Assembly (NCBI RefSeq): GCF_019443445.1
Contig: NZ_CP080378.1
Location: 2,976,001 to 3,040,000 of the forward strand
DNA length: 64,000 bases
Source: Massilia sp. PAMC28688
GTDB taxonomy: Bacteria; Pseudomonadota; Gammaproteobacteria; Burkholderiales; Burkholderiaceae_D
Reading direction: 5' to 3'
Both the position numbers and the translations under genes were made by a program. Below are positions 918-62,380 of this stretch, in pieces. How positions within the stretch are numbered: position 1 is the stretch's first letter; each line of letters begins with the position of its first letter. The notes under the pieces are model-generated. The model was given only the letters and a program-made list of their open reading frames with translations. It searched no databases and was not told where the DNA came from.

Positions 918-924
918 AAAGTGC

Positions 925-1650: not shown

Positions 1651-1759
1651 GTCGAAAATTCCTTAGACGGTATGCAAGAGTGGCCGACATTTTACCATGG
1701 GGCCGGCCAAAAAATTGCGGCCCCAAGCTCGCCTTGCCGATTCGCTTTACAATCATGGC

Positions 1760-2680: not shown

Positions 2681-2681
2681 C

Positions 2682-3077
2682 ATGAAACCACGCATTGCCC
2701 TGATCGCGCACGACAAGAAAAAGGACGACATGATTACGCTGGCGGCCGAGTACCTGGATTTCCTCCAGGGCTGCACGCTGATTGCCACCGGCACCACGGG
2801 CGGGCGCCTGGCCAACGAGCTGGGCCTGACCGTGGACCGCAAGCAGTCCGGTCCCTTTGGCGGCGACCTGCAAATTGGTACCATGCTGGTGGAAGGCCAC
2901 ATCGATGCCGTCATTTTCCTGCGCGACCCCATGACGCCCCAGCCGCACGAGCCGGACATCAATGCACTGGTGCGCGCCTGCGACGTGCACGACGTGGCCT
3001 GTGCCACCAATATTTCAACGGCCCACATGCTGCTGTGCCACCTGAAGATGGCAGCGAAGAAAAAGGAACTGACATGA
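2682..3077 (+). CDS. mgsA: Methylglyoxal synthase
   Basis: The enzyme converts dihydroxyacetone phosphate to methylglyoxal, a bypass of lower glycolysis that relieves sugar-phosphate stress. The product has 131 residues, a normal length. It carries the phosphate-binding GTTGG stretch near residues 37-41, the [10 protein letters not shown] loop, and [15 protein letters not shown], which includes the conserved catalytic-region Asp and His residues of the family. It starts one base after the upstream transporter gene stops, and its stop codon overlaps the start of the next oxidoreductase gene (ATGA). This indicates translational coupling in a transporter-mgsA-oxidoreductase operon. Confidence 0.95.
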
Positions 3078-4051: not shown

Positions 4052-4179
4052 GCGCGCCGGAAAAGAAAAACGGCGAACACGATGGTTCGCCGAAATTCGG
4101 ACGCTTGCTGATCGTCCTGATCCTGTCGGTCCTGCTGGTGGTGGGGATCACCTTTGCCTCGCTGGCAATGGTGACCTGA
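4048..4179 (+). CDS. Small single-pass membrane protein (43 aa), hypothetical
   Basis: A 43-codon frame begins at an ATG whose last bases overlap the TGA of the oxidoreductase gene (ATGA), the same coupling seen one gene upstream. The product starts with a charged stretch ([19 protein letters not shown]) followed by one hydrophobic helix (LLIVLILSVLLVVGITFASL) and a short tail. That arrangement fits a real N-in membrane microprotein rather than noise. I do not recognise a family. It ends 8 nt before the convergent DUF4136 gene. The function is unknown; position suggests co-expression with mgsA. Confidence 0.6.
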   Translation: MSAPEKKNGEHDGSPKFGRLLIVLILSVLLVVGITFASLAMVT

Positions 4180-4187
4180 CCGGGTAC

Positions 4188-4841
4188 TCAGTCTTCGCGC
4201 TTCAGTTCCACGGTGCGCGCCACCCCGCTCACGCCAGGGAAACCGGTAAAGGCGCTTTGCACCAGGGCCGGCATCACGACCGGCGTGGAGCGCTCGCGGC
4301 TGGTGTTATGGACCGTCACGTCAAACAGGCGGCGGCCGTCGTTGGCCGATTTGATGGCAAGCTGCAGCTCGCGCTTGTAATGGTGCTGGACACTGACCGT
4401 GTAGGCAGGGATGCCGGTCCAGAACGGATCATAAAACGGGCTGTACCAGCCGCCCCAGTAGCGCCGCCCGCCCCAGTAAGGACGGTAGAAAGGATGGCCG
4501 AAGCCAATGCGCGGATGATATTGCATCGGATACATCGGTTCAATCACGCGCACCGGGATATCGGTGGTCATGAAGCGCATGGCCACCTTCAGGTTGGGCG
4601 TGCTGCCGGACGCGGCTTCGCGAAAGCCCAGGCGTGCCAGTTCCTTGCGCACCAGCCCCTGATAGCTGCGCAATTCCAGCGTGTCTTCCTGGGCCTGGGG
4701 CGCGTCAAAGGCATAACTCTTGTCAGCCATGGCGGCGGGCCACTCGTGAAAGGTCGTGACATCGCTGCGGATGGTGGTGGCACAGCCACCGAGCAGGAGC
4801 GACAGCGACGCGGCTGCCGCCATAAACAGGCGTTTCATCAT
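4188..4841 (-). CDS. DUF4136 family lipoprotein
   Basis: The predicted product has 217 residues and starts MMKRLFMAAAASLSLLLGGC. It is a classic lipoprotein signal with lipobox LGGC, so it should be lipidated and anchored in the envelope. The body (TTFHEWPAAMADKSYAFD, then LRSYQGLVRKELARLGFREA) matches the DUF4136 pattern. A Tyr/Trp/Gly-rich middle segment (residues about 110-140) is typical of the group. The start is set by a GGAGAAT ribosome site directly before the ATG at 4841; the longer upstream frame lacks a signal. It is transcribed divergently from pepN. The function is unknown. Confidence 0.85.
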   Translation of the reverse strand: MMKRLFMAAAASLSLLLGGCATTIRSDVTTFHEWPAAMADKSYAFDAPQAQEDTLELRSYQGLVRKELARLGFREAASGSTPNLKVAMRFMTTDIPVRVIEPMYPMQYHPRIGFGHPFYRPYWGGRRYWGGWYSPFYDPFWTGIPAYTVSVQHHYKRELQLAIKSANDGRRLFDVTVHNTSRERSTPVVMPALVQSAFTGFPGVSGVARTVELKRED

Positions 4842-5018
4842 ATTCTCCGTCTTCACTTCCACTAACCCAAGAGCCACTGTACGGCTCGTTGCCGCTGGTT
4901 CTCGAGCAATTTTACAGACTGTTACCCTCCGCACATGGACGAAACACGCAGAGCGGGCGCTGCACTGTTGCGGTATTGGTAAAATAGACGCCCATCCAAC
5001 GTCACAGCAGAGTTTCCC

Positions 5019-7664
5019 ATGCGCACAGACATCCCCCAGACCATCTACCGGAAAGATTACACGGCACCGGCCTATTGGGTTGACACTGTCGAGCTTGGTT
5101 TTGATCTCGATCCGGAGCGCACCATCGTGGCCAGCCGCCTGGTCATGACGCGCAATGCCGACAGCCCGGCGCGCGACATCGAACTGTACGGCGACAACCT
5201 GGAACTGGTGGCCCTGCGCATGAATGGCAAGGCGCTGGGCGAGCGCGACTATCGCATCGAGGCGGGCGTGCTATCCATTGCCAATGCGCCGGACAATGTG
5301 ACGCTGGAAATTGAAACCATTACCTCGCCTGTCAAGAACACGACGCTCAACGGGCTGTACGTTTCCAACGGCAATTTCTTTACCCAGTGCGAAGCGGAAG
5401 GCTTCCGCGCCATCACCTATTTCCCTGACCGCCCCGACATCATGGCCCGCTACACCGTCATGCTGCGCGCCGACAAGGAGAAGTACCCGGTGCTGCTGTC
5501 GAACGGCAACCTGATTGAGGAAGGCGACCTGGGCGACGGGCGTCATTACGCCAAGTGGGAAGACCCGTTCAAGAAGCCTTCCTACCTGTTTGCGCTGGTG
5601 GCCGCGCGCCTGGTCTGCCAGGAAGAAACCTTCCGCCTGGCCGACGGCCGCGACGCCCTGCTGCAGGTGTGGGTGGAGGAGGGCAACCTCGACAAGACCG
5701 ATTACGCCATGCAGTCGCTCAAGAACAGTATTCGCTGGGACGAAGAGCGCTTTGGGCTGGAACTGGACCTGGACCGCTTCATGATTGTTGCCGTGAGCGA
5801 CTTCAACATGGGCGCGATGGAAAACAAGGGCTTGAACATTTTCAACACCAAGTTCGTGCTGGCCAATGCCCGCACGGCAACCGATGTCGACTATGCCGGC
5901 ATCGAGGCGGTGGTGGGCCATGAATATTTTCACAACTGGACCGGCAACCGCGTCACCTGCCGCGACTGGTTCCAGCTGTCGCTCAAGGAAGGCTTGACCG
6001 TCTTTCGCGACCAGGAATTTTCGGCCGACATGATCGGTACCGAGAGCGGGCGCGCCGTGGGCCGCATCGAACAGGTACGCACCCTGCGCCAGGCCCAGTT
6101 TCCGGAAGATGCGGGTCCCATGGCCCATCCCGTGCGCCCCGACTCCTTTGTCGAGATCAACAATTTCTACACCGTGACGGTGTATGAAAAGGGCGCGGAA
6201 GTGGTGCGGATGTACCAGACCCTGCTGGGGCGCGACGGTTTCCGCAAGGGCATGGACCTGTACTTCGAGCGCCATGACGAGCAGGCCGTGGAGTGCGATG
6301 ATTTCCGCGCCGCCATGGCCGACGCCAGCGGGCGCGACCTGACCCAGTTCGAGCGCTGGTACAGCCAGGCCGGCACGCCCGTGGTCCGCGCCAGGACGCG
6401 CTACGACCAGGATGCGCAGGCGTATGAACTGACCTTGTCGCAATCGTGCCCGCCCACGCCGGGCCAGGACCACAAGCTGCCCTTCCATATCCCGGTTGCC
6501 TTCGGCTTGCTGGGCGCGGACGGCCGCGACCTGCCCCTCACCATGGATGGCCAGGCGCTGGGCAAGACCACCGTGCTGGAACTGACCGAGGCGCAGCAGA
6601 CGTTCCGCTTTACCGGCGTGCAGGACGCGCCCACGCCCTCGATCCTGCGCGATTTTTCCGCGCCCGTGGTGCTGGAATACGACTACAGCGACGAGCAGCT
6701 GTTGCACCTGTTTAGCCACGACAGCGATCCCGTCAACCGCTGGGAAGCGGGCCAGCGCCTGGCCATGAGCCGCCTGCTGAACCTGACGGCTGCCGTGGCC
6801 GACGGCGGCAAGCTGGCGCTGGACGACACCTTCATCGGCGCCATGCGCACCATTCTGGAAGACCAGTCCCTCGACGCCGGCTTTCGCGAGCAAGCCATCT
6901 TGCTGCCGTCGGAGAGCATGGTGGCCGACCAGATGGACATGGTCCATCCGCAGGCGATCCACCTGGCGCGCCAGTACATGCGCCGCACCATTGGCGAAGT
7001 GCTGCGCGAAAGCCTGCATGCCCAGTATCAGGCCAACCAGACCCCCGGCCCATACAGTCCGGATGCCATTTCGGCCGGCCGGCGCGGCCTGAAAAACCTG
7101 TGCCTGTCCTACCTTGCCACGGTGCAGGACGATGAAAGCCTGGCCCTGGCGCGCTTCCAGTACGATAATGCCGGCAACATGACGGACCGGATTGCGGCGC
7201 TGATCGCCCTGATCCACGCGCAAGCGGCAGGTGCCGATGAAGCACTGGAACATTTCTACCGCGAATTCGAGAGCGAAGCGCTGGTGATCGACAAGTGGTT
7301 CATGGTGCAGGGTGCGGCGCCCAACAATGGCGTGGAAGAAGTGCGGGCGCTGATGGGCCACAAGGCGTTCAACATGAAGAACCCGAACCGGGCGCGCAGC
7401 CTGATTTTTGCCTTCTGTAATAGCAACCCGGCCCGCTTCCATGCACCGGACGGCAGCGGCTACGCCTTCTGGGCCGAGCAAGTGATTGCGCTTGACGCCA
7501 TCAACCCGCAGGTCGCCAGCCGCCTGGCGCGCTCCATGGACCGCTGGCGCCGCTACGCCCCGGCCTTGCAGGCGCACATGAAGCGTGCCCTGCAGCAGGT
7601 TGCCGGCATGAAAAAGCTGTCCAACGACGTGCGCGAAATCGTCACCAAGGCGCTGGCCAACTGA
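5019..7664 (+). CDS. pepN: Aminopeptidase N (M1 family)
   Basis: This 881-residue cytoplasmic zinc aminopeptidase removes N-terminal residues from peptides during protein turnover. Its length is that of the E. coli-type PepN. The exopeptidase motif GAMEN is at residues 265-269. The zinc motif HEYFH is at 301-305 with the third ligand Glu in SLKEGLTVF at 324. The C-terminal helical domain ([17 protein letters not shown] onward) is complete. It differs in type from the two secreted M1 enzymes further along. It stands between a divergent lipoprotein gene and fbp. Confidence 0.97.
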
Positions 7665-7707
7665 ATGGCCGAGCCGGCAAAAGAATTTAAAACCAAGAAG
7701 GAAGTCC

Positions 7708-8709
7708 ATGAAACGCGTCAGTCTTACGCAGCACCTGGTTGAAGAGCAACGCAACCACAATTCCATTCCCGCCGAACTGCGCCTGTTGATTGAAGTGGTC
7801 GCGCGCGCCTGCAAGACCATCAGCCATTCGGTGGGCAAGGGCGCCCTGGGCGACATTCTCGGCAGCGCCGATACCGAGAATATCCAGGGCGAAGTCCAGA
7901 AAAAACTGGACGTGATCTCCAACGAAATCCTGCTCGAAGCCAACGAGTGGGGCGGCCACCTGGCGGCCATGGCGTCGGAAGAAATGGAATCGATCCATCC
8001 CATTCCCAACCGCTATCCGATGGGCGAATACATGCTGCTGTTCGACCCGCTCGATGGCTCGTCCAATATTGACGTGAACGTCTCGATTGGCACCATCTTT
8101 TCCGTGCTCCGCGCGCCGGAAGGCATGGGCACGCCGACCGAACAGGATTTCATGCAGGCAGGCAGCATGCAGGTGGCGGCAGGTTACGCCGTGTACGGCC
8201 CGCAAACCATGCTGGTGCTCACCACCGGCAATGGCGTCAACTGCTTCACGCTGGACCGGGAAATGGGTTCGTGGGTGCTTACCCAGCGCAACATGCGCAT
8301 TCCGGCCGAGACGCGCGAGTTCGCCATCAACATGTCCAATGCGCGCCACTGGCATGCGCCCGTGACCCGGTATGTCGATGAGATGCTGGCCGGCGACACT
8401 GGCCCGCGCGGCAAGAATTTCAATATGCGCTGGGTGGCGTCCATGGTGGCCGACGTGCACCGCATCCTCAACCGGGGCGGTATTTTCATGTATCCGGCCG
8501 ACACGCGCGACACCTCCATGCCGGGCAAGCTGCGACTGATGTACGAAGCCAATCCCATGGCCATGATCGTCGAGCAGGCGGGCGGCGCCGCAACGGATGG
8601 GGTCCAACGCATCATGGATATTCCGCCGCAAAAACTGCATCAGCGTGTTCCCGTTTTCCTCGGCTCCAAGGCGGAAGTGGAGCGCGTGACGAGCTATCAC
8701 ACCGCCTGA
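7708..8709 (+). CDS. fbp: Fructose-1,6-bisphosphatase class I
   Basis: The enzyme hydrolyses fructose 1,6-bisphosphate to fructose 6-phosphate, the committed step of gluconeogenesis. The 333-residue product has the metal-binding motif [13 protein letters not shown] near residues 112-124 and the sugar-phosphate-binding region [12 protein letters not shown]. The end of the core contains [10 protein letters not shown], as in class I enzymes. An AAGGAAG ribosome site precedes the ATG at 7708. It follows pepN by 43 nt and precedes tRNA-Thr. No unusual features. Confidence 0.96.
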
Positions 8710-8804
8710 AGCGCGCCTGAAGCGCCGTTTTTGGCGGAAAAAGCCAAAGTTTGCAGATTCGGACTAGCAACTGTACGCAATTTTTTGCTAGAATACGCGT
8801 CTTC

Positions 8805-8880
8805 GCCGATTTAGCTCAGTTGGTAGAGCAGTTCATTCGTAATGAAAAGGTCGCCAGTTCGATTCCGGCAATCGGCACCA
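8805..8880 (+). tRNA. tRNA-Thr(CGT)
   Basis: A 76-nt cloverleaf with encoded CCA end. The acceptor stem GCCGATT/AATCGGC, D arm GCTC...GAGC, anticodon CGT at 8838-8840 and TTCGATT T-loop are all visible. Two stem positions are non-canonical: G27 opposite A43 at the foot of the anticodon stem and A52 opposite C62 in the T stem. A TAGAAT box at 8789-8794 is a likely -10 element. Confidence 0.95.
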
Positions 8881-8913
8881 GTACTTCGCATCAGGCACTT
8901 GCCTGATGCCTGG

Positions 8914-8949
8914 AAAACCCGCACCGCCACCAGCGCTGCGGGTTTTTTT
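8914..8949 (+). terminator. Intrinsic terminator after tRNA-Thr; target of the group II intron
   Basis: A ten-base-pair stem (8914-8923 with 8937-8946, AAAACCCGCA/TGCGGGTTTT) with a 13-nt loop, running into seven T residues. A second perfect hairpin, GCATCAGGC/GCCTGATGC, lies just upstream at 8888-8909. The group II intron begins three bases after the T run. Confidence 0.85.
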
Positions 8950-9352
8950 GTGGTGCGCCCAGCATGGGCGCACTCCTGTGGGTGAAAGTCCCGCCGCGAG
9001 CTGACCACAGCGAGCGAAGTGAAGCGCAACTGCGGAAGAGTAATCGACCGTGGGGAGGAAGCGTGAATCGTAAATCATGAGCCGATGGACAAGAATCGCA
9101 TAGAAGGCGCTGCCGAGCAGGGCGAGCGGGCCACAAACCGCGAAGCTCTTGTGGTCAAGGCGAGGCGGCGTAGATGCGGCGGCTGTGTGGTGAAGGAGTG
9201 CGGCCCTTACCTGGGGACGCCCTGCCTCACGTCTGAAAGGACGGCGGCATTGCCGTAGCAGGGTCTCAGCAGAGGTCATAGTAGTTGGTGGTAGCGCCGG
9301 GAAGGCTCGACCCCGCTAACGAAGGACCGAACGAGTAGGAGTGTTATCCGAC

Positions 9353-10720
9353 ATGTCGATGCGACAGGCAATGCGTCAGATGTCCGCGAAGGCGGGGCGG
9401 GAGGCCGTACGTCAGGGTGAAGCTCTGGCCGCAACTTCCAGCGACGAAGCTTGTTGCCCGCGACATGTGTCAGGAGACGCAGGATCAATGCTGCTGCGCG
9501 CAGCGTTGAGAAGAGAAAACCTGCTGCAGGCGTTCAAACGTGTGCGCGCCAACAAGGGCGCGGCCGGGGTGGATGGTCGGGATATCGACGAAACCTCTCG
9601 CTATCTGGCCGTGGCTTGGCCGGAGATACGTGAACAATTGCTGGCAGGGACGTACCGGCCTAGCCCGGTACGCAGGGTGACGATCCCCAAACCCGACGGT
9701 GGCGAGCGTGAGCTTGGCATCCCGACGGTGACGGATCGGCTGATCCAGCAGGCACTGCTCCAAGTGCTACAACCGATTCTTGATCCCACATTTAGCGAGC
9801 ACAGCTACGGCTTCCGTCCGGGCCGGCGTGCGCAGGATGCGGTACTTGCCGCCAAAGCATATGTCCAATCGGGACGCAGGACCGTGGTGGATGTGGACCT
9901 GTCGAAGTTCTTTGACCGGGTCAACCATGACATCCTGATCGACCGCCTAAGGAAACGCATCGACGACACCGGAGTGATCCGTCTGGTTCGTGCCTATCTG
10001 AACAGCGGCATCATGGACCATGGCGTGGTGCAGGCGCGGCATGAGGGCACGCCACAAGGCGGCCCCCTGTCTCCACTGCTTGCCAACGTTCTGCTCGATG
10101 AAGTGGATAAAGAACTGGAACGACGCGGTCACTGCTTCGCACGCTACGCCGATGATGCGAACGTCTATGTTTGCAGTAAACGTGCTGGCGAGCGGGTGAT
10201 GGCGCTGCTGCGCCGCCTCTATGACAAGTTGCACCTCGTGGTCAACGAAAGCAAGAGCGCGGTCGGCAGTGCTTTCGGTCGCAAGTTCCTCGGTTACAGC
10301 CTGTGGGTGGCACGTGGGAAAGTGGTCAAACTGAAGGTCGCTGAAAAGCCGCTGGCAACGTTCAAGCAGCGCATCCGTGAATTGACTGGACGCTCAGCGG
10401 GCCGCAGTATGGGCCAGATCGTCGAGAAGCTGCGTACCTACATGCTTGGCTGGAAGGGATACTTCAAGTTGGCGGAGACGCCCAAGATCTGGCGAGAACT
10501 CGATGAATGGCTGCGTCACAGGCTGCGAGCGATCCAGCTCAAGCACTGGAAACGCGGCAAGACCATGTATCGGGAGCTGATCCAGCTTGGAGCCGCGTCC
10601 CAAGTGGCGCGGACGGTGGCGGCAAATAGCCGTTGCTGGTGGCGCAATGCGGACCGGTTGTTGAAGACGGTCCTTACGATTGCCTACTTCGACCGGCTTG
10701 GCGTACCCCGCCTGTCCTGA
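9353..10720 (+). CDS. ltrA: Group II intron reverse transcriptase/maturase
   Basis: The intron-encoded protein binds its RNA for splicing and copies it into new sites. Visible are RT blocks GAAGVDG, TYRPSPVRRVTIPKPDGG, HSYGFRPGR, DVDLSKFFDRVNHD, EGTPQGGPLSPLLAN and the catalytic ARYADDANVYV. A maturase (GIIM) region follows with LRTYMLGWKGYF and EWLRHRLRAIQLKHWKRG. No HNH endonuclease domain follows, as usual in class C. The frame is open from a GTG at 9341, but that codon overlaps the AGGAG ribosome site, so the ATG at 9353 is the better start (455 residues). All key motifs are intact, so it may be active. Confidence 0.95.
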   Translation: MSMRQAMRQMSAKAGREAVRQGEALAATSSDEACCPRHVSGDAGSMLLRAALRRENLLQAFKRVRANKGAAGVDGRDIDETSRYLAVAWPEIREQLLAGTYRPSPVRRVTIPKPDGGERELGIPTVTDRLIQQALLQVLQPILDPTFSEHSYGFRPGRRAQDAVLAAKAYVQSGRRTVVDVDLSKFFDRVNHDILIDRLRKRIDDTGVIRLVRAYLNSGIMDHGVVQARHEGTPQGGPLSPLLANVLLDEVDKELERRGHCFARYADDANVYVCSKRAGERVMALLRRLYDKLHLVVNESKSAVGSAFGRKFLGYSLWVARGKVVKLKVAEKPLATFKQRIRELTGRSAGRSMGQIVEKLRTYMLGWKGYFKLAETPKIWRELDEWLRHRLRAIQLKHWKRGKTMYRELIQLGAASQVARTVAANSRCWWRNADRLLKTVLTIAYFDRLGVPRLS

Positions 10721-10732
10721 CCTCAACTATTC

Positions 10733-10770
10733 GAACCGCCCGGTGCGGACCCGCATGCCGGGTGGTGTGG
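10733..10770 (+). ncRNA. Group II intron domain V (catalytic hairpin)
   Basis: Thirteen bases after the maturase stop, GAACCGCCCGGTGCGGAC pairs with the following CCGCATGCCGGGTGGTGTGG to form the 34-38 nt domain V hairpin. It carries the CGC-type triad seen in class C introns. A GC-rich hairpin at 10774-10800 is the probable domain VI. Confidence 0.82.
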
Positions 10771-11083
10771 CAGGGGAGCAGCCCTTCAGGGCTGCCCCCT
10801 ATGCCGATCCCTCCATGACCCCATCGCGCCTCCCTTGGGGCCGCCATCGACTGAGTCGATCGACTTATTTCGCGGCAATTGCGATGCATTTATCGTCCAG
10901 CAGCAATCTATTCCCGCCTAAAAATTCGGCCTGGAAATGTTCCAAACGGTTCTCTGTCGAGCCTCCATTGCTCTGTTAGTCAGCGCACAGTGATCACTCT
11001 GCAATCGTTATATTTTTTGTATTCGCTGCATCGTTTCAGATGCATCACCCGCGCTGGTATATAAAAACTTTAGAGGATAGATC

Positions 11084-11743
11084 ATGGATAACCAAAAATC
11101 GCAAACCGGTAATGGCAGCAACATCAACAAAGACGGCTCGGGCAGCAGCATGGGCAAGGACCTGAACAAGGATTCGGGCAATCACATGGGCGGCACCGGC
11201 GGCATGGGCGGCATGGGCGGCAACAAGAACGCCTCCGGTCTGGATTCCTCGAAGCAGTTCGATTCGAGCAAATCATCAGACTTCAACAAGTCCAGCGACC
11301 TGAACAAGGGCAACGACCAGCTTGGCGCTGCCAAGACCAATAATGCCTTCGACAGCAAGTCGATGGACTCCAACAAGTCGATGGACACGAACAAGTCGGC
11401 CGAGTTCCCGAAGGCTGGCATGCCAACGGCCCCGGCATCGGATTCGACCAAAGGTGCCGGCATGACCGCTGCCGACGCTCACAAATCGATCGACAAGGCC
11501 CTGGATGCCGCCCAGCCAATGGCAGACCGCCTGGCGTCGACCGCTCACAGCAGCGTGGACAAGGTATCGAGCGCCCTCACCGACGGCCGTGCCCGCATGG
11601 AAGACAAGACCAAGCAGCTGACGGAAGCCTATGAGCACTTCGCCGCTACCGGCCGCGAGTATGTGCGCAGCAGCCCGGCTACCTCGGTCCTGGTGGCCCT
11701 GGCCGCCGGCTACACGCTGTCCAAACTGCTCGGCCGCCGTTAA
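11084..11743 (+). CDS. DUF883/ElaB-YqjD-type protein with long disordered N-terminus
   Basis: The protein has 219 residues in two parts. Residues 1 to about 125 are low-complexity, rich in Asn, Ser, Lys, Asp, Gly and Met, with near-repeats of FDSSK/FNKSS/MDSNKS/MDTNKS type. Residues about 130-219 form an amphipathic helical segment (AHKSIDKALDAAQPMADRLA) ending in a hydrophobic patch and basic tail (SPATSVLVALAAGYTLSKLLGRR). This matches DUF883 (ElaB/YqjD) proteins, which are membrane-tethered, ribosome- or stress-associated in enterobacteria. An AGAGGA ribosome site precedes the ATG. It sits directly upstream of the catalase gene, consistent with a stress role. The disordered extension is unusual for the family. 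Confidence 0.75.
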   Translation: MDNQKSQTGNGSNINKDGSGSSMGKDLNKDSGNHMGGTGGMGGMGGNKNASGLDSSKQFDSSKSSDFNKSSDLNKGNDQLGAAKTNNAFDSKSMDSNKSMDTNKSAEFPKAGMPTAPASDSTKGAGMTAADAHKSIDKALDAAQPMADRLASTAHSSVDKVSSALTDGRARMEDKTKQLTEAYEHFAATGREYVRSSPATSVLVALAAGYTLSKLLGRR

Positions 11744-11757
11744 TCGCCTGAGCTGCT

Positions 11758-11781
11758 CCGGCCGGCACCTGTGCCGGCCGG
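11758..11781 (+). other. Perfect GC hairpin after the DUF883 gene
   Basis: A ten-base-pair perfect stem (CCGGCCGGCA with TGCCGGCCGG) and a four-base loop lie 15 nt past the stop. There is no T run, so it is either a transcript-end stabiliser or a weak terminator. Confidence 0.55.
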
Positions 11782-11806
11782 ACGTTCCAAGAAATTTGCG
11801 TTAATG

Positions 11807-11838
11807 ATCGCCTGCCCCGCTTTAGCGGCGCAGGCGAT
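11807..11838 (+). promoter_or_regulatory. Long hairpin in the region upstream of katE
   Basis: ATCGCCTGC (11807-11815) pairs with GCAGGCGAT (11830-11838), enclosing a second stem CCGC-TTTA-GCGG. The only mismatch is a C opposite C. It ends 46 nt before the katE start and lacks a T run. If the DUF883 transcript reads through, this would be a leader structure for katE. Confidence 0.45.
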
Positions 11839-11884
11839 TGCGTACGCTGCATTCTCCTTTTCCCTACTAAGCTCGAGGTGTTAA

Positions 11885-14299
<2,415 letters not shown>

Positions 14300-54154: not shown

Positions 54155-55636
54155 ATGGCATACAGATGGGAAACGCCAGCAAGCGTCTGGCTGGAAGACG
54201 ACAAGACGGGGCAGTTCGAGCTGGTCTCGAGCCAGGGCCTCGGCCGGATCGACTGGCAGGCGCACGCGCGCGGTCGCCTGCCCGACGTCGCCCATCTGCT
54301 TGGCGCTTCGCTGCCGGACCAGTGTTCCTGCGCCCCCATCTACCCGGAAGGCTTTGCGTTCTGCCCCACCTGCGGGCGCGCACTCAACAAGCTGGCCGGG
54401 AAAATGAAGTACCAGCCCGACTGGTGGGGCGCGTGGAGCGACCAGTTCCTGCCGCGCCATGTCCCGCACGGCTTGCCCGTCACTTCGCTGGCGCTCGGCG
54501 ACAGCCTGGAGGAGCGGCCGCCGGCGCCGGAAGTGGGTCGCTTCGATGTGAGCATGCCGGTGCCGCCCAACGCCCAGTGCGTGTTTGCCGCGGGTGCCTT
54601 TGGCTTTCCCGTGCAGCGCCTGCTGGCGCTGGCGTACACGCGCAACGTGCTTCAGTACTGGGACCCGCTGGCGCAGCTGTGGCACGTGATGGCTGCCGAA
54701 GATGCAGCGTCGGACCTGGCCTTTACGCGCGCCGACTACGCCTGGCTGCCGGCCCATAATCCCGCGCGCGGCGAAGTGGCCATTGTGCCGACCGACCGCG
54801 GGCTGCGCCGTCTGTGGATCAACCCGGTCAGCGAAACCTATCGCTCCGAAGCGGTGTTCGACTCGCCCCTGGCCAGTGCCCCGGGCGCCATGCGCCGCCA
54901 CATTGCCTGCCTGTTTGCCGGCGAGGGCGGCGCGCGCCTGTGGACGGCGGCCAGCGACCTGTCCACCGCCACCGAATTCGATTGCGGCGGCGCGCCCGTT
55001 CACGGCTGGTCGCGCCCGATTGGCTACGACGGCCGCCTGTTCTGGCTCCACGCCGAGGGTCAGCTGATCTGGCAGCCGGGGACCGAACCGCAATGGCTGC
55101 CGTGGCCTGCCGGATGGACCCCGCGGCTGGAGTTTGGCGGCCCCACCCAGAGCCGGGACGGCCGCCTGTGGCTGATCGGTCATGGCGACCAGTCCTATTC
55201 ATTCCTTGAACTGGGCAAGGCGCGCGGCCAGCAGGAACAGATCAGCGGCGCGCGCCTCGGTTTTGCCAGCCTGCTGTTCCGGCGCGGCCATGCGGTGGTG
55301 GCCGAACCGTGGGACATGGAGCATGTGGAAGACCCGCACGATGATGACTCGCTGGTGCTGCCGCTGCTGCGCGGCTTCAATAACAACCGCAGCCAGCCCA
55401 GCGGCCTGGTACTGCGCTTTCACAAGTACACGGGGCGGGCCGAAGACGCGCTGGAAAACCGCGTGATCGCGCGCACCACGGTGGAATGGATCGGCAAGCG
55501 CAACGTGATCCTGGACGAGATTGCGCGCCTGACGCGGCCGCACGACTGCGTGCCGTTCGTGTATGACCGCTGCCTGTGGCTGCACCATCCGGACTGGAAC
55601 CAGGTGCGCGGCTGGCATCTGGACGAGCTGCCGTGA
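54155..55636 (+). CDS. Tubulin-operon protein 1: zinc ribbon plus beta-rich region, unknown
   Basis: A 493-residue soluble protein I do not recognise. Residues 57-73 form a zinc ribbon, C-x-C-x10-C-x2-C (CSCAPIYPEGFAFCPTCG). The remaining 400 residues have repeated Trp/Gly beta motifs (GYDGRLFWLHAEGQLIWQPG; RDGRLWLIGHGDQSYSFLEL) that look like propeller or WD-type blades. GGAAGG lies 6 nt before the ATG at 54155; a TATGAT box at 54095-54100 may be the -10. It is the first gene of a five-gene operon with a tubulin-like GTPase, and its stop overlaps the next start (TGATG). Confidence 0.72.
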   Translation: MAYRWETPASVWLEDDKTGQFELVSSQGLGRIDWQAHARGRLPDVAHLLGASLPDQCSCAPIYPEGFAFCPTCGRALNKLAGKMKYQPDWWGAWSDQFLPRHVPHGLPVTSLALGDSLEERPPAPEVGRFDVSMPVPPNAQCVFAAGAFGFPVQRLLALAYTRNVLQYWDPLAQLWHVMAAEDAASDLAFTRADYAWLPAHNPARGEVAIVPTDRGLRRLWINPVSETYRSEAVFDSPLASAPGAMRRHIACLFAGEGGARLWTAASDLSTATEFDCGGAPVHGWSRPIGYDGRLFWLHAEGQLIWQPGTEPQWLPWPAGWTPRLEFGGPTQSRDGRLWLIGHGDQSYSFLELGKARGQQEQISGARLGFASLLFRRGHAVVAEPWDMEHVEDPHDDDSLVLPLLRGFNNNRSQPSGLVLRFHKYTGRAEDALENRVIARTTVEWIGKRNVILDEIARLTRPHDCVPFVYDRCLWLHHPDWNQVRGWHLDELP

Positions 55637-57120
55637 TGCGGGCCCTCCGCTTCGCCGCCTGCGCCGCGCTGGCTTGCGCCGCGCTGCCGGCGCTGGCCGT
55701 GCCGCAGGTGTTTTTGGTCCAGAACTCGGGCTGGATGGAGCCGTTCTACACCGACCCCGGTTCGCGCTACAAGGCGCTGGTGACGGAACTGGTGCTGGCG
55801 GTGGCGCAGCCGGGCGACCCCATGGTGCTCGCCGCGTTCAACCAGAGCCGGCCCGGCGCGCCTTCGCCCAGGGCCCTGCTGTCGTTCAAGTTCGATGCAA
55901 AGACCGCGCGCCAGAGCGTGAGCGGTGCGCTGGCCGGGCTGGAACTGGCGCGCAAGCCTGGCAGCAGTGCGTATGCCGACACCGACCTCAATGAAGCGGT
56001 CAGTTCGGCCGTGGGCAGCGCGCTGGGCGGCAAGCCCGGGCTGGTGTGGCTGATCACGAACAACCGCAACAGCCCCAATAATGACCAGGAAACCGCGCGC
56101 CGCAACCGCGAGTTCTACGAGCTGATTCACCGTGGCGGCGCGATCACACGCGCGCTTGCCTTTCCCCTGCAAATGCCGGTGGCCGGTACCCACTACAAGG
56201 CCAATGGCCTGATGGTGTACGTGTTTGCCGTGGGCGACGAAGGCGCGCGCGACCTCAAGGCGCTGGTGGCCTCAGGCGCCATCGCCAGGGTAATCACCGA
56301 GCCGCCCGCGCGCCTCAAGCCCCTGGACCAGGACACGGTGCGGCTGGTGCCGCGCAAGGTCAGCGACGCGCCCGGCGTGTCGTTTGCGATGGGGCAGGGC
56401 GGCATGCTGCTGGCGAATGTGGACGCGGCGGCGAAAACGCCGGCCGCCAAAATCGAATGGCAGCTCGAAAACACCATGTACCCGTACACCATCGCCAGCG
56501 CCACCATCAGCGCGCGCTCGAAGCTGGGCGGCGAAGATCGCAAGATTGAACTGGGCGAGCGCACCGTGCGCGCGCTGGCACCGGGCAAGAGCGCGCCGCT
56601 GTCGTCGCAGATGACACTACCCGTCAAGCAGCTGCCGGGCGCCTGGTCGATGGCGGCGATTGGCAGTGCCGGTTCGGCCTACGTCATGCCCGGCCAGATC
56701 GAGCTGCGGCTGGACGGCCAGCGGCTGGAACTGTCGCAGGCCTTCCGCGCACGCATGGCGGCCCTGTTCCCGGGCGACCCGCTGCCCGACATCTTCACGC
56801 CCCCGGCGCAGATCAAGACCTCGGTGGCGCGCTTGCCGCTGCAGGTGCGCGTGCATTACGGCGTGGGCCCGCTGGTGGCGCTGATCGGCGGCGGCCTGCT
56901 GCTGCTTGGTGCGCTTGCTGCGGCGGCGCTGGCATTTGGGCGGCCGCGCAAGGTGCAGCTGACGGTCGAGGACGAGTTGCGCACCATGCAGGCCCGCGCC
57001 GGTACCACCCAGCCCATCTTCGACAAGGCCGGCAACAAGGTCGCGCAGTTGAAGACGACGATATTCGGAAGCGAGCTGATTGACCTGCGCGAAGGTGCGC
57101 AGGTGCGGCTGGGCCGCTGA
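55636..57120 (+). CDS. Tubulin-operon protein 2: membrane-anchored vWA-like protein
   Basis: A 494-residue protein with a signal peptide (residues 1-22), a vWA-like Rossmann domain at the N-terminus, a beta-rich middle (about 260-400), one membrane helix near 418-442 (VGPLVALIGGGLLLLGALAA) and a 60-residue cytoplasmic tail. In true vWA domains the first strand ends with DxSxS; here it is VFLVQNSGWMEPF, so the metal site is missing. GKPGLVWLITNNRNSPNN matches a later strand and loop. The topology puts the vWA-like part in the periplasm and the tail facing the GTPase. Confidence 0.72.
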   Translation: MRALRFAACAALACAALPALAVPQVFLVQNSGWMEPFYTDPGSRYKALVTELVLAVAQPGDPMVLAAFNQSRPGAPSPRALLSFKFDAKTARQSVSGALAGLELARKPGSSAYADTDLNEAVSSAVGSALGGKPGLVWLITNNRNSPNNDQETARRNREFYELIHRGGAITRALAFPLQMPVAGTHYKANGLMVYVFAVGDEGARDLKALVASGAIARVITEPPARLKPLDQDTVRLVPRKVSDAPGVSFAMGQGGMLLANVDAAAKTPAAKIEWQLENTMYPYTIASATISARSKLGGEDRKIELGERTVRALAPGKSAPLSSQMTLPVKQLPGAWSMAAIGSAGSAYVMPGQIELRLDGQRLELSQAFRARMAALFPGDPLPDIFTPPAQIKTSVARLPLQVRVHYGVGPLVALIGGGLLLLGALAAAALAFGRPRKVQLTVEDELRTMQARAGTTQPIFDKAGNKVAQLKTTIFGSELIDLREGAQVRLGR

Positions 57121-57163
57121 CCACATTAACGCATCAACCTATTTTTATAAACGGGACTTATCA

Positions 57164-57598
57164 ATGCAAATCAATACCCCACCGCCACCCGACCCAGGCT
57201 TCAAGCTGCCAGGCGACGAAAAGGCCTCGCCCGATCCGCTGCCAAAGAATCCTGAAACGGCCGGCATGCCGGTGGAAATCGCACCGGTCGAAGGCGCCCC
57301 CGTCACCGACACATCGACCCGTGACCTGGCCATTGGCGGGGCGGTTTTCCTGGTGCTGCTGATCGTATTCTTTTTTGTTCGTAACGCCTACGTCCACCAC
57401 CTCGTGGTCAAGCGGGTGGCGCCGTCGTCGGCCGGCAGCGCCGGCTGGCTGCTGTTTGTGGGCCTGGGCTTCATCAGCGCCGCCGCGGTGCTGGCGATCA
57501 TCAACGCCAGCAAGTTCCTCACTTTTGCCGTCACCGCTCCCCTGGTGCTGGTGGGGCTGGTAGCGCTGGCCGCCGCGCTGTTTGTCGGCCGCCGCTGA
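57164..57598 (+). CDS. Tubulin-operon protein 3: small multi-pass membrane protein
   Basis: A 144-residue protein with a Pro-rich, acidic N-terminal 45 residues (INTPPPPDPGFKLPGDE) and three membrane helices: LAIGGAVFLVLLIVFFFV, AGWLLFVGLGFISAAAVLAI and FLTFAVTAPLVLVGLVALA. I recognise no family. The ATG at 57164 is chosen because the longer frame overlaps the stop of the previous gene and has no ribosome site. It lies 43 nt after protein 2 and 30 nt before the GTPase. It is a good candidate for a membrane receptor or channel partner of the GTPase. Confidence 0.7.
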   Translation: MQINTPPPPDPGFKLPGDEKASPDPLPKNPETAGMPVEIAPVEGAPVTDTSTRDLAIGGAVFLVLLIVFFFVRNAYVHHLVVKRVAPSSAGSAGWLLFVGLGFISAAAVLAIINASKFLTFAVTAPLVLVGLVALAAALFVGRR

Positions 57599-57628
57599 GT
57601 CGCCCTTGATATTTACTGAAAGCTGAAC

Positions 57629-60600
57629 ATGGCAGAGTTTCCCAATCCAGGCACCGGCAAGAAGGCCGAACTCAAAGTCGACCTGCGTCCCACGCTGTTC
57701 ATCGGCGCGGGCGGCACCGGCATGGAAGTCATGCTGCGCATCCGCCGCCGCATCTTGTCGGAAGTATGGAACCGGCATAATCCGACGCGGGTCGAGTCCA
57801 TCGGCCAGTTCCCGGTGGCGCGCTTTTTGCACTTTGACCTCGATAACAATGCCATCATCGACGAAGGCAAGTCGCAGCGCACCGATCCCTGGTATGAGCT
57901 GGTCAAGCTGACCGACGACGAGCGCCTCGTCGAGCCGATCGACCTGCCGCAGTATCATGAGTCCGACGACAGCCTGTCGCGCTTTCCCCTGATTGAAAAC
58001 TGGATGCCGCTGCGGCCAAAAAAACTGCGCTCGCTCGGCATCGACCCATCCAAGGGCGCGGGCCAGATCCGCGCCGTCGCGCGCCTGTACCTGTTCGACA
58101 AATACCCCAAGCTGCGCAGCCGGATCAAGGGCGCCCTCAATTTTTTGAGCAGCAACGCCGGCAACGAACGCAAGGAAAACTACCAGCGCCTTGGCTTGCA
58201 GGTTGATACCTCCAAGTTCCGCATCGTCGTCATCGCTTCCTGCGCCGGCGGCACCGGCGCCGGCACTGCCATTGACCTGGGCTGGATCTCCAAGGCCATC
58301 GCGCGCCAGGAAGTGTCGGACAACCAGGTCGACCTGGTCATGCTGCTGCCGGCCGGTTACGCCAAGGCCAACAAGGAGCGCACCGAAGCGAATGCCTACG
58401 CCACGCTCATGGAGCTGGAAACGACCATGCGCGACATGAATGCGCAGGTGCGCTGGGCCGATCCGGACAGCCTGGTCGGCAAGGGCGCGCCGTTCGACGA
58501 CGTGTATTTTGTCGACACCGCCAACCTGGCCAACAAGGCCACGCAGGACATCAAGGATGTCTACCAGATGGTGGCCGACACGCTGTTCGAAGACTTCGCC
58601 TCGGCCGATTTTGCCAACCGCAAGCGCTCGATCGCGGTCAACCAGCAGCAGCACAAGCTGGGACCATTCAATCCGCGCGTCCCGGAGCAGCGCTTCGGCG
58701 ACATGCGCCTGTCGTACTCCAAGGTGTATTCGGCCTTTGGCCAGGCCATTCTGGATACCCAGCAAAGTCTGCGCGACGATATCCGCGCCTATGAGCTGGC
58801 GGCGCTCATGGTCAAGGCTTTCTTTGGCCTGGTGGGCAGCGACGGCACCGCAGCGCGCCGCGCCGGCGATCAGGAACGCGACATCTTCATGCGCGAACAA
58901 ATGGCCATGAGCGAGCATCCGTTTGACGAATTCCCGGACTTTCGCAAGGGGACGGTGGACGTGACGCCGTTCCAGGAGTACTCGCTGACTGACCAGCTCC
59001 TGATGGACAAGGACGGACGCTCTCTGCTGGAACGGGTCGAGAGCAAGGTGCAGCTGGAGATGGACCGCATCATGGGCTCCTACGACATTGGCGTGTGGCG
59101 CGAAAAAGTGGCCGAGCTGCTGCCGCACCTGGAGCGCGACGCCATCCGCGAAGCCGGCGCCACGGCGGAAACGAGCGAAGACCGCATCAAGCGTCACACG
59201 GCCGAACTGCTGGCCCGCCTGAAGGGCAGGGCGCGCGAGCAGCTGTACGCGCTGCTCGACGACCGCAAGCAGGGCGGCCTCGAGTTCGTGCTGTCGCTGC
59301 TGGAACAGATCAAGGCGAGATTGCTGCAGCGCGACCTGGGCAACGCCGAACGCAACGGCAAGCGCTATCGCGATATCCGCGACGCGCTGCGCACGCGCCA
59401 GGTGGAAGAGTCGCTCGGCAACCTGTCGCAGGCAGCCGGCCGCCTGTTCGGAAAAGATGCGCAGGCGCGCGAAATCATGACCCACTTGAAGCGCGATATT
59501 GCCGACTATCTGCGCTTTCACCTGCTGGCAGTGGCCGCAGGCCAGTCGATTGAAGTCATGCGCGGCATGTCGGCCTGGCTGGGCGATCCGCAGTCCCTGG
59601 ACGACGCCGGCCAGGCCGAGTGGAGCGGCATCGCCGGTGAATTCCAGGAGGGCCGGCGCTGCGTGCAGGCCATGCTGGGCGCGGTGGACCAGCGCATTGC
59701 GCAGCTGCGCGCCGATGCGCGCCATGAACACGCCACCTACATCAAGCTGGCCGGCGACGAGCTGCCGGCGCCGGTGCGCCTGACCGGCGACATCAGCGCC
59801 TGGAGCGAAGAAGTGCTGCTCGAGTTTGGCGGCTCCTCGCGCCTGTTCCCGCAGCTGGGTGACGACCGCCTGCGCGCCACGCTGCTGCTCAAACTGTTCC
59901 GGCGCGCCCAGACCCAGCTCTCGGCACTGCAGCTGGACGAGGAGCCGGCCGACCCGCTGCTGGTACGACTGGGCGCCATGTCGCCGCAGGAGCGCCAGCG
60001 CATCTTCAATGAGTGGATCAAGAGCGCCATGCCGTGGGTGAACGCCCGTTTTTCGGCCGAGTTCACCCCCAAGGCCGACCAGTTCAAGTGCTTTATCGGC
60101 GTGGGCGACGTCAACGCCTGGCGCAAGCTGGAAGACGAGATCAAGGCGGCAGTGCCCACCGGCTCCTTCCATGGCGATCTGGTTTCCATCGTCAACACCG
60201 GCATCAGCGGCAAGGCCGTTTGCTACATCGAGCTGTCGGGCTTTCCCATGACGGTGCTGCGCGGCCTGCCGACCTGGCGTACCTCGTACCAGATCGAGAA
60301 CCCCAAGATCCCGACCCACCTGCATTTTGATGCGACGCGCTTCCGTCATCCGATCTCACCGTCGATGGATGAACTGAACCGTCTGGCCGACGACTACGAA
60401 TGGTTCCTGCAGGCGGTGGCACTGGGTGTCATCAAGCGCAAGGCCGATCTGGCCGACCGCGAAGCGTCGTTCCAGCCACGCGGCCAGTACCTGTTTGAAG
60501 TGGAGCCGGGATCGGGCGAGTGGCTGCAGATTGGTAACGAGTTTGCGATCCGCTCCAATGGCCTGCCGCCGTACTACCGCGAACAGGTGATCGGCGCGGT

Positions 60601-61276
60601 CCAGCAGCGCCTGGCGAACATGGGTCCGCACCAGCTCACGCTGCTGGCCGCGCTGATGCGTCACTACCAGCAGCGTGTGTACGAACCCAAACTGGAAATG
60701 GACGAAACCGGCGCCCAGCTGCCATCGCCATCGCTGCCCAACATCACGGCCAGGCGATTGTATGATGCCTGGCTGCGCCGCGCACAGTCGATGCAGCCCG
60801 AGCTCACCACGCGCGCCGTCGACCTGGCCACGGCAAGTCTGGCGCAGTGGTCCGACCTGGTCCCCAATTCGGCCAGCGATGCCTATGCATGGGAAGTCGA
60901 ACGCGCCATCGACAAGCGCGTGATCCGCGCCGACTACCTGGCCAGCGACGAGGAGGCGGCCCAGGTGCTGCAGCAGCGTGTGCAGTCGCAGGCGGCCGCC
61001 GCGTCCTCCGTTGCCTACATGGCGCCGGTAGCGGGCGTAGCGCCATCAACGCGCTTCAAGGTATTCCTCCATGGAGCCCAGCAAGGACCCTACATGGTCG
61101 AGGAACTGGCCGTGCGCGTGGCGCGCGGCGAAGTGGGGCCGGAGACCAAGGTGTGGAACATGCAATGGAACCCGAAGGCAGATAAATGGAAGCTGGCTGG
61201 TGACCAGCCGGAACTGGCGGGGCTGTTCGACAATGCCATCCCCGACCCCGATGACGACATACCCGATCCGGACTAA
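57629..61276 (+). CDS. Tubulin-operon protein 4: tubulin/FtsZ-like GTPase with C-terminal GYF domain
   Basis: A 1215-residue protein. LRPTLFIGAGGTGMEVMLRI (residues 20-39) is the nucleotide-binding start of tubulin-like folds, and VVIASCAGGTGAGTAIDLGW (200-219) is the tubulin signature GGTGxG loop. Together they indicate GTP binding of the prokaryotic tubulin-like (Tubulin_2/FtsZ-like) type. About 800 further residues are helical, and residues about 1140-1195 form a GYF/DUF4339 domain (FKVFLHGAQQGPYMVEELA; WNPKADKWKLAG) followed by an acidic tail (DPDDDIPDPD). It probably assembles at or near the membrane, with GYF binding proline-rich partners such as protein 5. Confidence 0.85.
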   Translation: MAEFPNPGTGKKAELKVDLRPTLFIGAGGTGMEVMLRIRRRILSEVWNRHNPTRVESIGQFPVARFLHFDLDNNAIIDEGKSQRTDPWYELVKLTDDERLVEPIDLPQYHESDDSLSRFPLIENWMPLRPKKLRSLGIDPSKGAGQIRAVARLYLFDKYPKLRSRIKGALNFLSSNAGNERKENYQRLGLQVDTSKFRIVVIASCAGGTGAGTAIDLGWISKAIARQEVSDNQVDLVMLLPAGYAKANKERTEANAYATLMELETTMRDMNAQVRWADPDSLVGKGAPFDDVYFVDTANLANKATQDIKDVYQMVADTLFEDFASADFANRKRSIAVNQQQHKLGPFNPRVPEQRFGDMRLSYSKVYSAFGQAILDTQQSLRDDIRAYELAALMVKAFFGLVGSDGTAARRAGDQERDIFMREQMAMSEHPFDEFPDFRKGTVDVTPFQEYSLTDQLLMDKDGRSLLERVESKVQLEMDRIMGSYDIGVWREKVAELLPHLERDAIREAGATAETSEDRIKRHTAELLARLKGRAREQLYALLDDRKQGGLEFVLSLLEQIKARLLQRDLGNAERNGKRYRDIRDALRTRQVEESLGNLSQAAGRLFGKDAQAREIMTHLKRDIADYLRFHLLAVAAGQSIEVMRGMSAWLGDPQSLDDAGQAEWSGIAGEFQEGRRCVQAMLGAVDQRIAQLRADARHEHATYIKLAGDELPAPVRLTGDISAWSEEVLLEFGGSSRLFPQLGDDRLRATLLLKLFRRAQTQLSALQLDEEPADPLLVRLGAMSPQERQRIFNEWIKSAMPWVNARFSAEFTPKADQFKCFIGVGDVNAWRKLEDEIKAAVPTGSFHGDLVSIVNTGISGKAVCYIELSGFPMTVLRGLPTWRTSYQIENPKIPTHLHFDATRFRHPISPSMDELNRLADDYEWFLQAVALGVIKRKADLADREASFQPRGQYLFEVEPGSGEWLQIGNEFAIRSNGLPPYYREQVIGAVQQRLANMGPHQLTLLAALMRHYQQRVYEPKLEMDETGAQLPSPSLPNITARRLYDAWLRRAQSMQPELTTRAVDLATASLAQWSDLVPNSASDAYAWEVERAIDKRVIRADYLASDEEAAQVLQQRVQSQAAAASSVAYMAPVAGVAPSTRFKVFLHGAQQGPYMVEELAVRVARGEVGPETKVWNMQWNPKADKWKLAGDQPELAGLFDNAIPDPDDDIPDPD

Positions 61277-61279
61277 GGC

Positions 61280-62380
61280 ATGAACCTGCAAGACCAAGTT
61301 GTTTTCCGTTGTATCCACGCGGCCTGTGCGCGGCAAATGCCGCGCAGGGTCAATTTCTGCCCATGGTGCGGCACGGGCCAGCATGATGGCGTGGTCAATC
61401 CCGCCCATGTGGCGCGGCCGGCGCAGGCCGAGTACCAGGCGGCGATGCCATACGTCCCGCCGGCGCCACCTGCGCCACCTGCGCCACCTCCCGCACCATC
61501 TGCCGGCGAACCTGCTGCGCCCGTGACGCCGGCATGGGTTCCGCCCGCTCCGGCGCCGGCTGCGAAGGCCGCTCCGGAGCCCGTGGTGCGGGCTGCGCCC
61601 CCGCCACCGCCCCCGCCGCCGCCCGTGCCGCCGGGCGCGCGCGGGCCGGTGCCGGCGACGCCGCCGCGGCGCGAACCGGTGCGCCTGCGCTACTGGCTCA
61701 TGGCCCTGGCTGCGCTGCTGCTGATCTGGCTGTACGCCAAGCCGGACGGCAAGAAGATCGAGAACCGCATTGAAAGCGCCATCGCGGCCAGCAAGGAATG
61801 CCGTTTCAATGACGCCCAGTCCGAACTGATCGCCCTGCGCATGACCAAGGCCACACCGGAACAGCTGGAGCGACTGCAGTCGGCCATCAACGCGGCAGTC
61901 CCCGGTTGCAACAAGAAAAAGGCGCGTGAAAAAGCGTGGGGCGAGGCGCGCGAGGCGGTTGAAAACCTGCTCGGCTCCGGGGAGTTTGCCAAGGCACAGG
62001 CGCGCCTGAGCAAATTCATCGAGAAATACCGCGAAGATGAAGACACCCGCAAGCTCAAGGCACGCATCAGCCAGCAGAGGGCAGATGCGGCGCCGATCGC
62101 GCTGCCGGTGCCGGTGGGGGAAGAGCTGCCGCCGCCGCGCCCGGCGCGCAATGCGGCGGCGATCGCGCAATCGGTGCGCAACCTGATCGATGAAGCCGAC
62201 CGTGCCCTGCGCGCCGGCGACTACATCAGCGCTTCGGAAAAGCTGGAGATCTGCATCACCATGGTCGATGAAGGCAACCGCGAATGTGCAGCCTTCAAGG
62301 TCCATGCCGACCGCATGCAGCGCGACAAGGAGCGCTGCCTGTCAGCGGGCCGCCAGTGGCTGGAAGACCGCTGCCGCTGA
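61280..62380 (+). CDS. Tubulin-operon protein 5: zinc ribbon, proline-rich linker, TM, coiled region
   Basis: A 366-residue protein. Residues 11-30 form a zinc ribbon (C-x4-C-x10-C-x2-C, ending NFCPWCG). Residues 45-130 are a linker of Pro and Ala with a run of nine prolines. One membrane helix lies near 135-152 (YWLMALAALLLIWLYAK), then a charged helical region with repeated motifs (AKAQARLSKFIEKYREDEDT; VRNLIDEADRALRAGDYISA) that resemble TPR-like helices. It starts 3 nt after the GTPase stop with AAGG as ribosome site. The proline-rich linker is a plausible ligand for the GYF domain of protein 4. Confidence 0.75.
   Translation: MNLQDQVVFRCIHAACARQMPRRVNFCPWCGTGQHDGVVNPAHVARPAQAEYQAAMPYVPPAPPAPPAPPPAPSAGEPAAPVTPAWVPPAPAPAAKAAPEPVVRAAPPPPPPPPPVPPGARGPVPATPPRREPVRLRYWLMALAALLLIWLYAKPDGKKIENRIESAIAASKECRFNDAQSELIALRMTKATPEQLERLQSAINAAVPGCNKKKAREKAWGEAREAVENLLGSGEFAKAQARLSKFIEKYREDEDTRKLKARISQQRADAAPIALPVPVGEELPPPRPARNAAAIAQSVRNLIDEADRALRAGDYISASEKLEICITMVDEGNRECAAFKVHADRMQRDKERCLSAGRQWLEDRCR

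Follow-up and report, generated by a model that had tools for sequence, protein, structure and literature searches.

A conserved five-gene block of Massilia encodes an FtsZl1/vWA variant whose predicted tubulin fold is unusual and whose vWA site is altered

Introduction

What does a giant tubulin-like GTPase do in a tight operon with membrane and zinc-ribbon proteins? The question is raised by five genes, here called orf1 to orf5, in a stretch of 64,000 nucleotides (nt) from Massilia sp. PAMC28688 (contig NZ_CP080378.1, positions 2,976,001 to 3,040,000; the whole stretch is hereafter the window). The host genome is a single contig of 5.46 Mb. The original prediction, made from the letters of the window, could not match this set to any described system. 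This point needs correcting: orf4 is a Tubulin_2/FtsZl1 protein, and von Willebrand factor A (vWA) partners of that family were reported in 2010, in the sections of PMC2875224 drawn on here.

According to those sections, a vWA gene lies in the same operon in the majority of FtsZl1 members, and most of these vWA partners have an intact metal ion-dependent adhesion site (MIDAS). Neither T6-H7 nor a familiar C-terminal domain is confidently identified there in FtsZl1, and filament formation is left open; a reviewer asked how a cytosolic tubulin relative could work with periplasmic partners.

We find that the block is a well-defined FtsZl1/vWA variant, set apart by the unusual tubulin fold predicted for orf4 and by changes at the vWA site of orf2. 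Among the literature matches listed (titles and abstract openings; subscription papers and supplements lie outside), the five-gene set is not described, and a single experimental work on an FtsZl1 member occurs, on Synechocystis mutants.

Results

A recurring block of five genes

All five open reading frames (ORFs) lie where they had been predicted, on the + strand between 54155 and 62380, with gaps of -1, 43, 30 and 3 nt in order from orf1 to orf5; the ATG of orf2 overlaps the stop of orf1 by 1 nt. Among the best 80 of 250 relatives found in genome contigs, 72 loci hold all five genes in order, seven are truncated by contig ends, and the remaining one, from Thiodictyon, joins orf1-orf4 to zinc-ribbon genes of other kinds. 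The block thus recurs as proposed; the count holds for close relatives, because only these best 80 were examined.

In a sample of 60 related genomes, orf4 itself occurs in 21, its own included: in 16/16 of the same genus, in 4/19 of the same family (one a contig-end fragment) and in 0/24 of the others, after removal of two GYF-only matches (G055, G056) from an initial 23. The 20 relative loci all contain orf1-orf4 by tblastn, and 16 of them orf5; one more orf5 was found by profile, and the other three loci end at contig edges. In 369 genomes of the class, 29 match orf4: 25 only at the GYF end and three within the tubulin region, the remaining one being the genome of the window itself. In 300 genomes of the order, Tubulin_2 is present in seven and orf2 in five, all among the seven; around the two Tubulin_2 genes without orf2, profiles found no orf1, orf2, orf3 or orf5 within 18-19 kb.

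The same gene order appears at locus L052, in another family of the order (E = 0.0005 for orf5), and at locus L056, in another class (E = 6e-14 for orf1). The GTPase of L056 has the same sequence as a protein named Acetobacteraceae bacterium KSS8, which we take to be an alphaproteobacterium. Homologues of the GTPase without the other four genes, which the original prediction held to speak against a system, were met only far off, and then in part: a homologue on an Azospirillum plasmid (L185, 6990-21057; 29% identity, with Tubulin_2 and GYF_2) has an orf1-like (E = 1e-14) and an orf3-like neighbour (E = 2e-10), with no orf2- or orf5-like one among 14 tested. Five plasmid records carry a Tubulin_2 relative, one of them covering at least 80% of orf4.

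At locus L039 (G006), orf4 and its neighbours are fragmented and interrupted by stops; the listed completeness of this genome is 48%, and the breaks are probably an assembly or sequencing error.

A tubulin fold with a helical insert

The orf4 product matches Pfam Tubulin_2 over residues 23-373 (E = 1.7e-48; 166 bits, cut-off 27), as do 17/17 homologues; its nearest named relatives are mostly Massilia. The tubulin/FtsZ nucleotide motifs noted originally are borne out: eight glycines (G26, G28, G29, G31, G207, G208, G210 and G212) are invariant in 58/58 aligned homologues. The GYF domain is confirmed too, and its closest solved relative by sequence is the GYF domain of GltJ/AgmX (7z3c; E = 1.9e-7).

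Structure prediction likewise returns the proposed tubulin fold. Tubulin rows among the matches listed align from tubulin residue 1 to about 383-396; the alignment with CetZ spans 323 residues, and all but one of the listed tubulin-type rows span about 295-340. In the model, a strand (366-376) and a helix (379-399) are followed by mainly helices and a few short strands up to residue 799, with long helices between 516 and 698. Then come a strand (819-825), a helix (828-841) and two more strands (852-856 and 862-873), with many helices between 913 and 1125. In tubulin, the elements that follow the central helix are, in sequence, S7, H9, S8, H10, S9, S10. The simplest reading of the model is that the second tubulin domain would be complete, with a helical insert of about 400 residues between H9 and S8; the residue-level match to tubulin is putative, because the structural alignment gives ranges only. 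The coiled-coil region was judged from the helices of the model.

At the proposed T7 position, the column of D358 reads D in 56, E in one and R in one of the 58 homologues. This assignment rests on a non-significant orf4-FtsZ profile alignment and on the strand order of the model. A by-eye placement of T7 at residues 322-338 was dropped, since both of these put it near 344-361.

Two further observations concern orf4. Residues 895-911 (60311-60361) contain invariant P895, H897, H899, P908 and P911; they form a loop beyond the proposed tubulin fold, modelled in part with low confidence, and may be a functional site. Opposite orf4, a minus-strand ORF of 1062 residues (57161-60349) most likely reflects the high GC content, as an antisense artefact.

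A vWA domain with a replaced metal site

The vWA-like call on orf2 stands by its predicted fold and lacks Pfam support: the assignment rests on VIA re-alignment of the predicted structure, while Pfam gives no vWA match in the window protein and touches 2/22 homologues (best E = 0.0032). Foldseek alone retrieves integrin chains and potassium channels, at low template-modelling scores. In place of the expected DxSxS, Q29, S31, G32, W33 and M34 are kept in 22/22 sequences (alignment A5), and QNSGWM occurs in 77 of the 78 orf2 copies found in the 80 loci; the exception (L073) is truncated by a contig end. The MIDAS acids of loops 1 and 3 are absent. After the transmembrane (TM) helix, a small cytosolic beta domain occupies residues 438-492.

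Membrane partners and zinc ribbons

The predicted membrane placement of orf2, orf3 and orf5 was upheld. Three TM segments are predicted in orf3, and charge bias favours an outside N-terminus in 75/79 homologues (one of the four exceptions, L063, is a mis-set anchor). The N-terminal tail is variable except around the motif GFx[LIV]P, found in 78 of the 79 orf3 genes of the 80 loci (GFxLP in 57, GFx[IV]P in 21); the one miss, L108, is truncated by a contig end. In more distant loci, GFSLP stands at this place in L052 and DFNLP in L056, and the Azospirillum protein has no such motif.

Of the two predicted zinc ribbons, that of orf5 holds well: its four-cysteine pattern is kept in 74/75 homologues, with weak Pfam matches in the window protein (DUF7575 E = 0.026, DZR 0.61). 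The orf1 ribbon fares less well, as its cysteines are present in the window protein, without a Pfam zinc-ribbon match there, and gone in 6/14 aligned homologues. A beta-propeller in orf1 was a guess that we set aside: Reg_prop reaches E = 0.045 in 1/14 homologues, and no convincing solved relative was found. In Thiodictyon (L136), zinc ribbons read by eye are fused to FGE-sulfatase and TerD domains at the two ends of the block (93-1172 and 9707-10396).

The orf5 linker has a median of 106 residues and 24% proline over 71 homologues (range 5-47%). Its TM segment is taken from homologue predictions and sequence; the window protein itself failed a stricter TM scan. The part that follows varies, being helical in Massilia and a PEGA domain in L056.

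Upstream of the block lie a gene on the - strand with no Pfam match above cut-off and, beyond it, a LysR gene; downstream, Pfam identifies a molybdopterin oxidoreductase gene on the - strand.

Table 1. The five genes and their features, in window coordinates.
Feature	Position	Strand	Residues	Description
orf1	54155..55636	+	493 aa	No TM predicted; Trp/Pro-rich; N-terminal zinc ribbon
orf1 zinc ribbon	54323..54373	+		C57-x-C59...C70-x2-C73
orf2	55636..57120	+	494 aa	Signal peptide, periplasmic vWA, beta-sandwich, one TM, short cytosolic beta domain
orf2 vWA domain	55693..56313	+	~20-226
orf2 MIDAS replacement	55720..55746	+	29-37	QNSGWMEPF where DxSxS expected
orf2 beta-sandwich	56335..56859	+	~234-408
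orf2 TM helix	56866..56940	+	411-435
orf3	57164..57598	+	144 aa	3 TM; N-terminal tail predicted periplasmic (charge bias)
orf3 tail motif	57197..57211	+		GFKLP; GFx[LIV]P across homologues
orf4	57629..61276	+	1215 aa	Tubulin-like GTPase; C-terminal GYF_2
orf4 T1 loop	57701..57721	+	25-31	IGAGGTG
orf4 T4 signature	58238..58264	+	204-212	SCAGGTGAG
orf4 proposed T7 region	58679..58711	+	351-361	Acidic D358; inferred
orf4 helical insert	58826..60073	+	~400-815	Long coiled-coil-like helices in model
orf4 proposed second-domain elements S8-H10-S9-S10	60083..60247	+	819-873	From model
orf4 GYF_2 domain	61070..61216	+	1148-1196	Pfam E = 5.6e-7
orf5	61280..62380	+	366 aa	N-terminal zinc ribbon, Pro-rich linker, one TM, helical periplasmic part
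orf5 zinc ribbon	61310..61369	+		C11-x4-C16-x10-C27-x2-C30
orf5 Pro-rich linker	61370..61687	+		Predicted cytosolic
orf5 TM segment	61691..61738	+	~138-153	Homologue predictions and sequence

A diverged type of the block

Massilia aquatica, a Duganella and an unclassified member of the Oxalobacteraceae carry a diverged type of the block, about 45% identical in orf4, and a profile of the diverged proteins retrieves proteins named Janthinobacterium, Rubrivivax, Paraburkholderia, Burkholderia and more. In the three complete diverged loci, every gene is nearer within its type than to the common type (group-mean distances), least clearly so for orf5 (0.59 within versus 0.77 to the common type). M. 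aquatica is a Massilia by name, yet carries the diverged block, and none of the usual flanking genes (LysR, the upstream gene and the molybdopterin oxidoreductase gene) was found within its locus of 18.5 kb. These observations suggest exchange of the whole block. Directly after orf5, three diverged loci have a gene resembling glycine-zipper lipoproteins; its Pfam matches are weak (1/3 above cut-off).

Partners of more distant Tubulin_2 genes

The neighbourhoods of the wider family come from a handful of loci, taken without a control count; Pfam confirms Tubulin_2 in L053, L176, L178 and L219. In L178, a vWA gene with an intact DRSGS lies beside the Tubulin_2 gene, and on a Thermus plasmid an annotated vWA gene adjoins a Tubulin_2 copy. 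On a Paraburkholderia megaplasmid (L219, 12940-13725), a zinc-ribbon/TM/TPR protein, built as orf5 is, directly follows a Tubulin_2 gene of another type; TPR is called by Pfam in this locus only. The zinc ribbons of L219, L053 and L136 were read by eye, their Pfam names being weak or lacking.

Discussion

The block shares with the FtsZl1/Tubulin_2 family (PF13809) the Tubulin_2 domain, glycine-rich GTP motifs, a coiled coil after the GTPase domain, a C-terminal part made up largely of helices, neighbouring genes for vWA and membrane proteins, and the additional presence of a canonical FtsZ. It differs in the C-terminal GYF_2, in the lost vWA metal-site acids, in the fixed partners orf1, orf3 and orf5, and in the orf4 model, where the tubulin fold is complete and the coiled coil is inserted within it; moreover, Pfam finds no OmpA and no kinase in the five block proteins, and no P-loop GTPase (DO-GTPase) in these or in three flanking ones. 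With CetZ, FtsZ and tubulin, orf4 has in common the fold, as predicted by its model, the T1 and T4 motifs and an acid at the proposed T7 position; unlike them, it carries the long insert, a further helical C-terminal part and a GYF domain.

In the following scheme, the gene block, predicted folds, topology and conservation are backed by the calculations; every protein contact, the GTPase activity, the assembly and the sensed signal are inferred. Our leading, still tentative reading is that the block encodes, as one unit, an inner-membrane-spanning complex coupling an outside sensor to the GTPase inside. Outside would lie the vWA domain of orf2, the N-terminal tail of orf3 with its GFx[LIV]P and the helical part of orf5; inside, the tail of orf2, the zinc ribbon and Pro-rich linker of orf5, soluble orf1 and the orf4 GTPase. 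The vWA domain, devoid of its metal-site acids, likely binds a fixed protein partner, for which the orf3 tail would be the obvious candidate. Recruited to the membrane, orf4 would perhaps dock through its single GYF domain on the Pro-rich linker of orf5. GTP binding, and perhaps head-to-tail assembly, would then decide whether orf4 forms a scaffold or filament under the membrane. In this way, the state of the envelope outside may be coupled to GTP-controlled assembly inside.

The motif PPG is a GYF ligand. Docking on a conserved PPG of orf5 was rejected as a strict rule, and docking on its general Pro-rich linker is possible. Docking of the GYF domain on the orf3 tail is less likely, because the charge bias puts that tail outside.

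Several points weigh against the complex as proposed. PPG is missing in most listed orf5 homologues. Among 14 proteins neighbouring the Azospirillum homologue, none is orf2- or orf5-like, though GYF_2 is kept there, and its orf3-like protein lacks GFx[LIV]P; this lowered the standing of the complex slightly. In L056, a weak orf5 match (E = 0.0045) is separated from orf4 by about 660 nt, and DFNLP takes the place of the orf3 motif. The orf4 model has a mean predicted local distance difference test (pLDDT) of 78.3 and a predicted template-modelling score of 0.60, with pLDDT below 50 at residues 1-13, 74-81, 244-247, 888-902 and 1119-1139. Foldseek alone gives no orf4 match at E<=0.001, and the profile alignment with FtsZ is not significant. 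Finally, profile comparison of orf2 with vWA proteins of the same genome and of L178 gave no significant signal, in a vWA set that is small and crudely cut.

A doubtful but substantial rival is a conflict or programmed-death module, in which an effector would be set off once the GTPase detects invasion or damage to the envelope, a mechanism that Kaur and colleagues proposed for GTPase-centred systems. In the portion of PMC7159879 used here, these also bring tubulin, vWA, membrane proteins and zinc ribbons into one neighbourhood; the block differs in having no P-loop GTPase or effector domain by Pfam, GAP1 not having been searched with its own model. Some distant Tubulin_2 genes do adjoin typical effectors. 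In L176 (G864, 8171-13851), a Tubulin_2 protein of 1381 residues ends in a STAND/AAA region, and its gene shares 4 nt with the AAA-TIR gene that follows; the two genes may be an immune-like pair, and the STAND fusion raised the rival slightly. In L053 (G296, 617-11263, minus strand), the Tubulin_2 gene is accompanied by OmpA, DUF4384, caspase-DUF4384 and CHAT genes and by two zinc-ribbon/TM proteins. Around the Azospirillum homologue, three genes are annotated as caspase family (one Pfam-checked), beside OmpA-family annotations, and in Thiodictyon the zinc-ribbon/TerD gene adjoins orf4. At L057, L059 and on a cyanobacterial plasmid, the first two only partly annotated, no caspase, CHAT or TIR-type effector was seen. 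Within the block itself, 0/5 proteins match PADLOC-DB models at E<=1. Its GTPase is present in all sampled congeners, whereas defence genes usually have a patchy distribution; the phage collection contains no relative, and 0/36 pattern matches in viral contigs encode one. In addition, the same portion of PMC7159879 limits the tubulin theme to firmicutes and actinobacteria.

The predicted order of orf2 (vWA, beta-sandwich, TM, short cytosolic tail) recalls integrin beta and alpha2-delta proteins; its loops 1 and 3 lack the MIDAS acids, and we mean a likeness of build, with no descent claimed. An extended reading, which we regard in all its parts together as unlikely, is a bacterial counterpart of the integrin-to-cytoskeleton link, where a vWA/beta-sandwich/TM protein would be tied via small membrane adaptors to an inner tubulin-fold filament, the complete tubulin core would be broken by a coiled-coil arm, and the zinc ribbons would be constant plugs for lineage-specific outputs (TPR-like, PEGA, TerD, FGE-sulfatase).

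In Myxococcus gliding, GltJ has a zinc ribbon and a GYF domain in one membrane protein, and AgmX acts together with a Ras-like GTPase. A machine for surface motility or polarity, whose GTPase docks on a trans-envelope scaffold as in GltJ gliding or in the cyanobacterial phototaxis of a Tubulin_2 protein, would fit the kinship of the GYF domains, and seems to us rather improbable. The GYF domain is the sole feature common with GltJ: the block has it on orf4 and the zinc ribbons on orf1 and orf5, with a tubulin-like GTPase. AgmX, by the part of PMC5182065 consulted, also has a zinc finger. The passages of PMC9880817 used here report that Synechocystis mutants of sll0445 (Tubulin_2), sll0446 and sll0447 are impaired in phototaxis, and that the three products co-fractionate with pilus assembly proteins; there, however, the partners differ (FtsA and DivIC domains), and the mutants also alter photosystem II electron transport. 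Least probable, and indeed quite unlikely, is membrane remodelling or vesicle formation, which Makarova and Koonin proposed for FtsZl1: the same GTPase family with vWA and membrane partners speaks for it, but in the sections of PMC2875224 drawn on here it is a proposal from genome context, questioned by its own reviewer.

Returning to the membrane-spanning complex, the original interpretation as a whole is partly supported. FtsZl1 proteins have been known since 2010, as those sections of PMC2875224 record. Whether they keep a second tubulin domain and a T7 acid for head-to-tail assembly is now testable, and so is the manner in which a cytosolic tubulin relative cooperates with periplasmic partners. 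The block, with its predicted fixed topology in Massilia, offers a concrete system for both, in a genus with named strains in collections.

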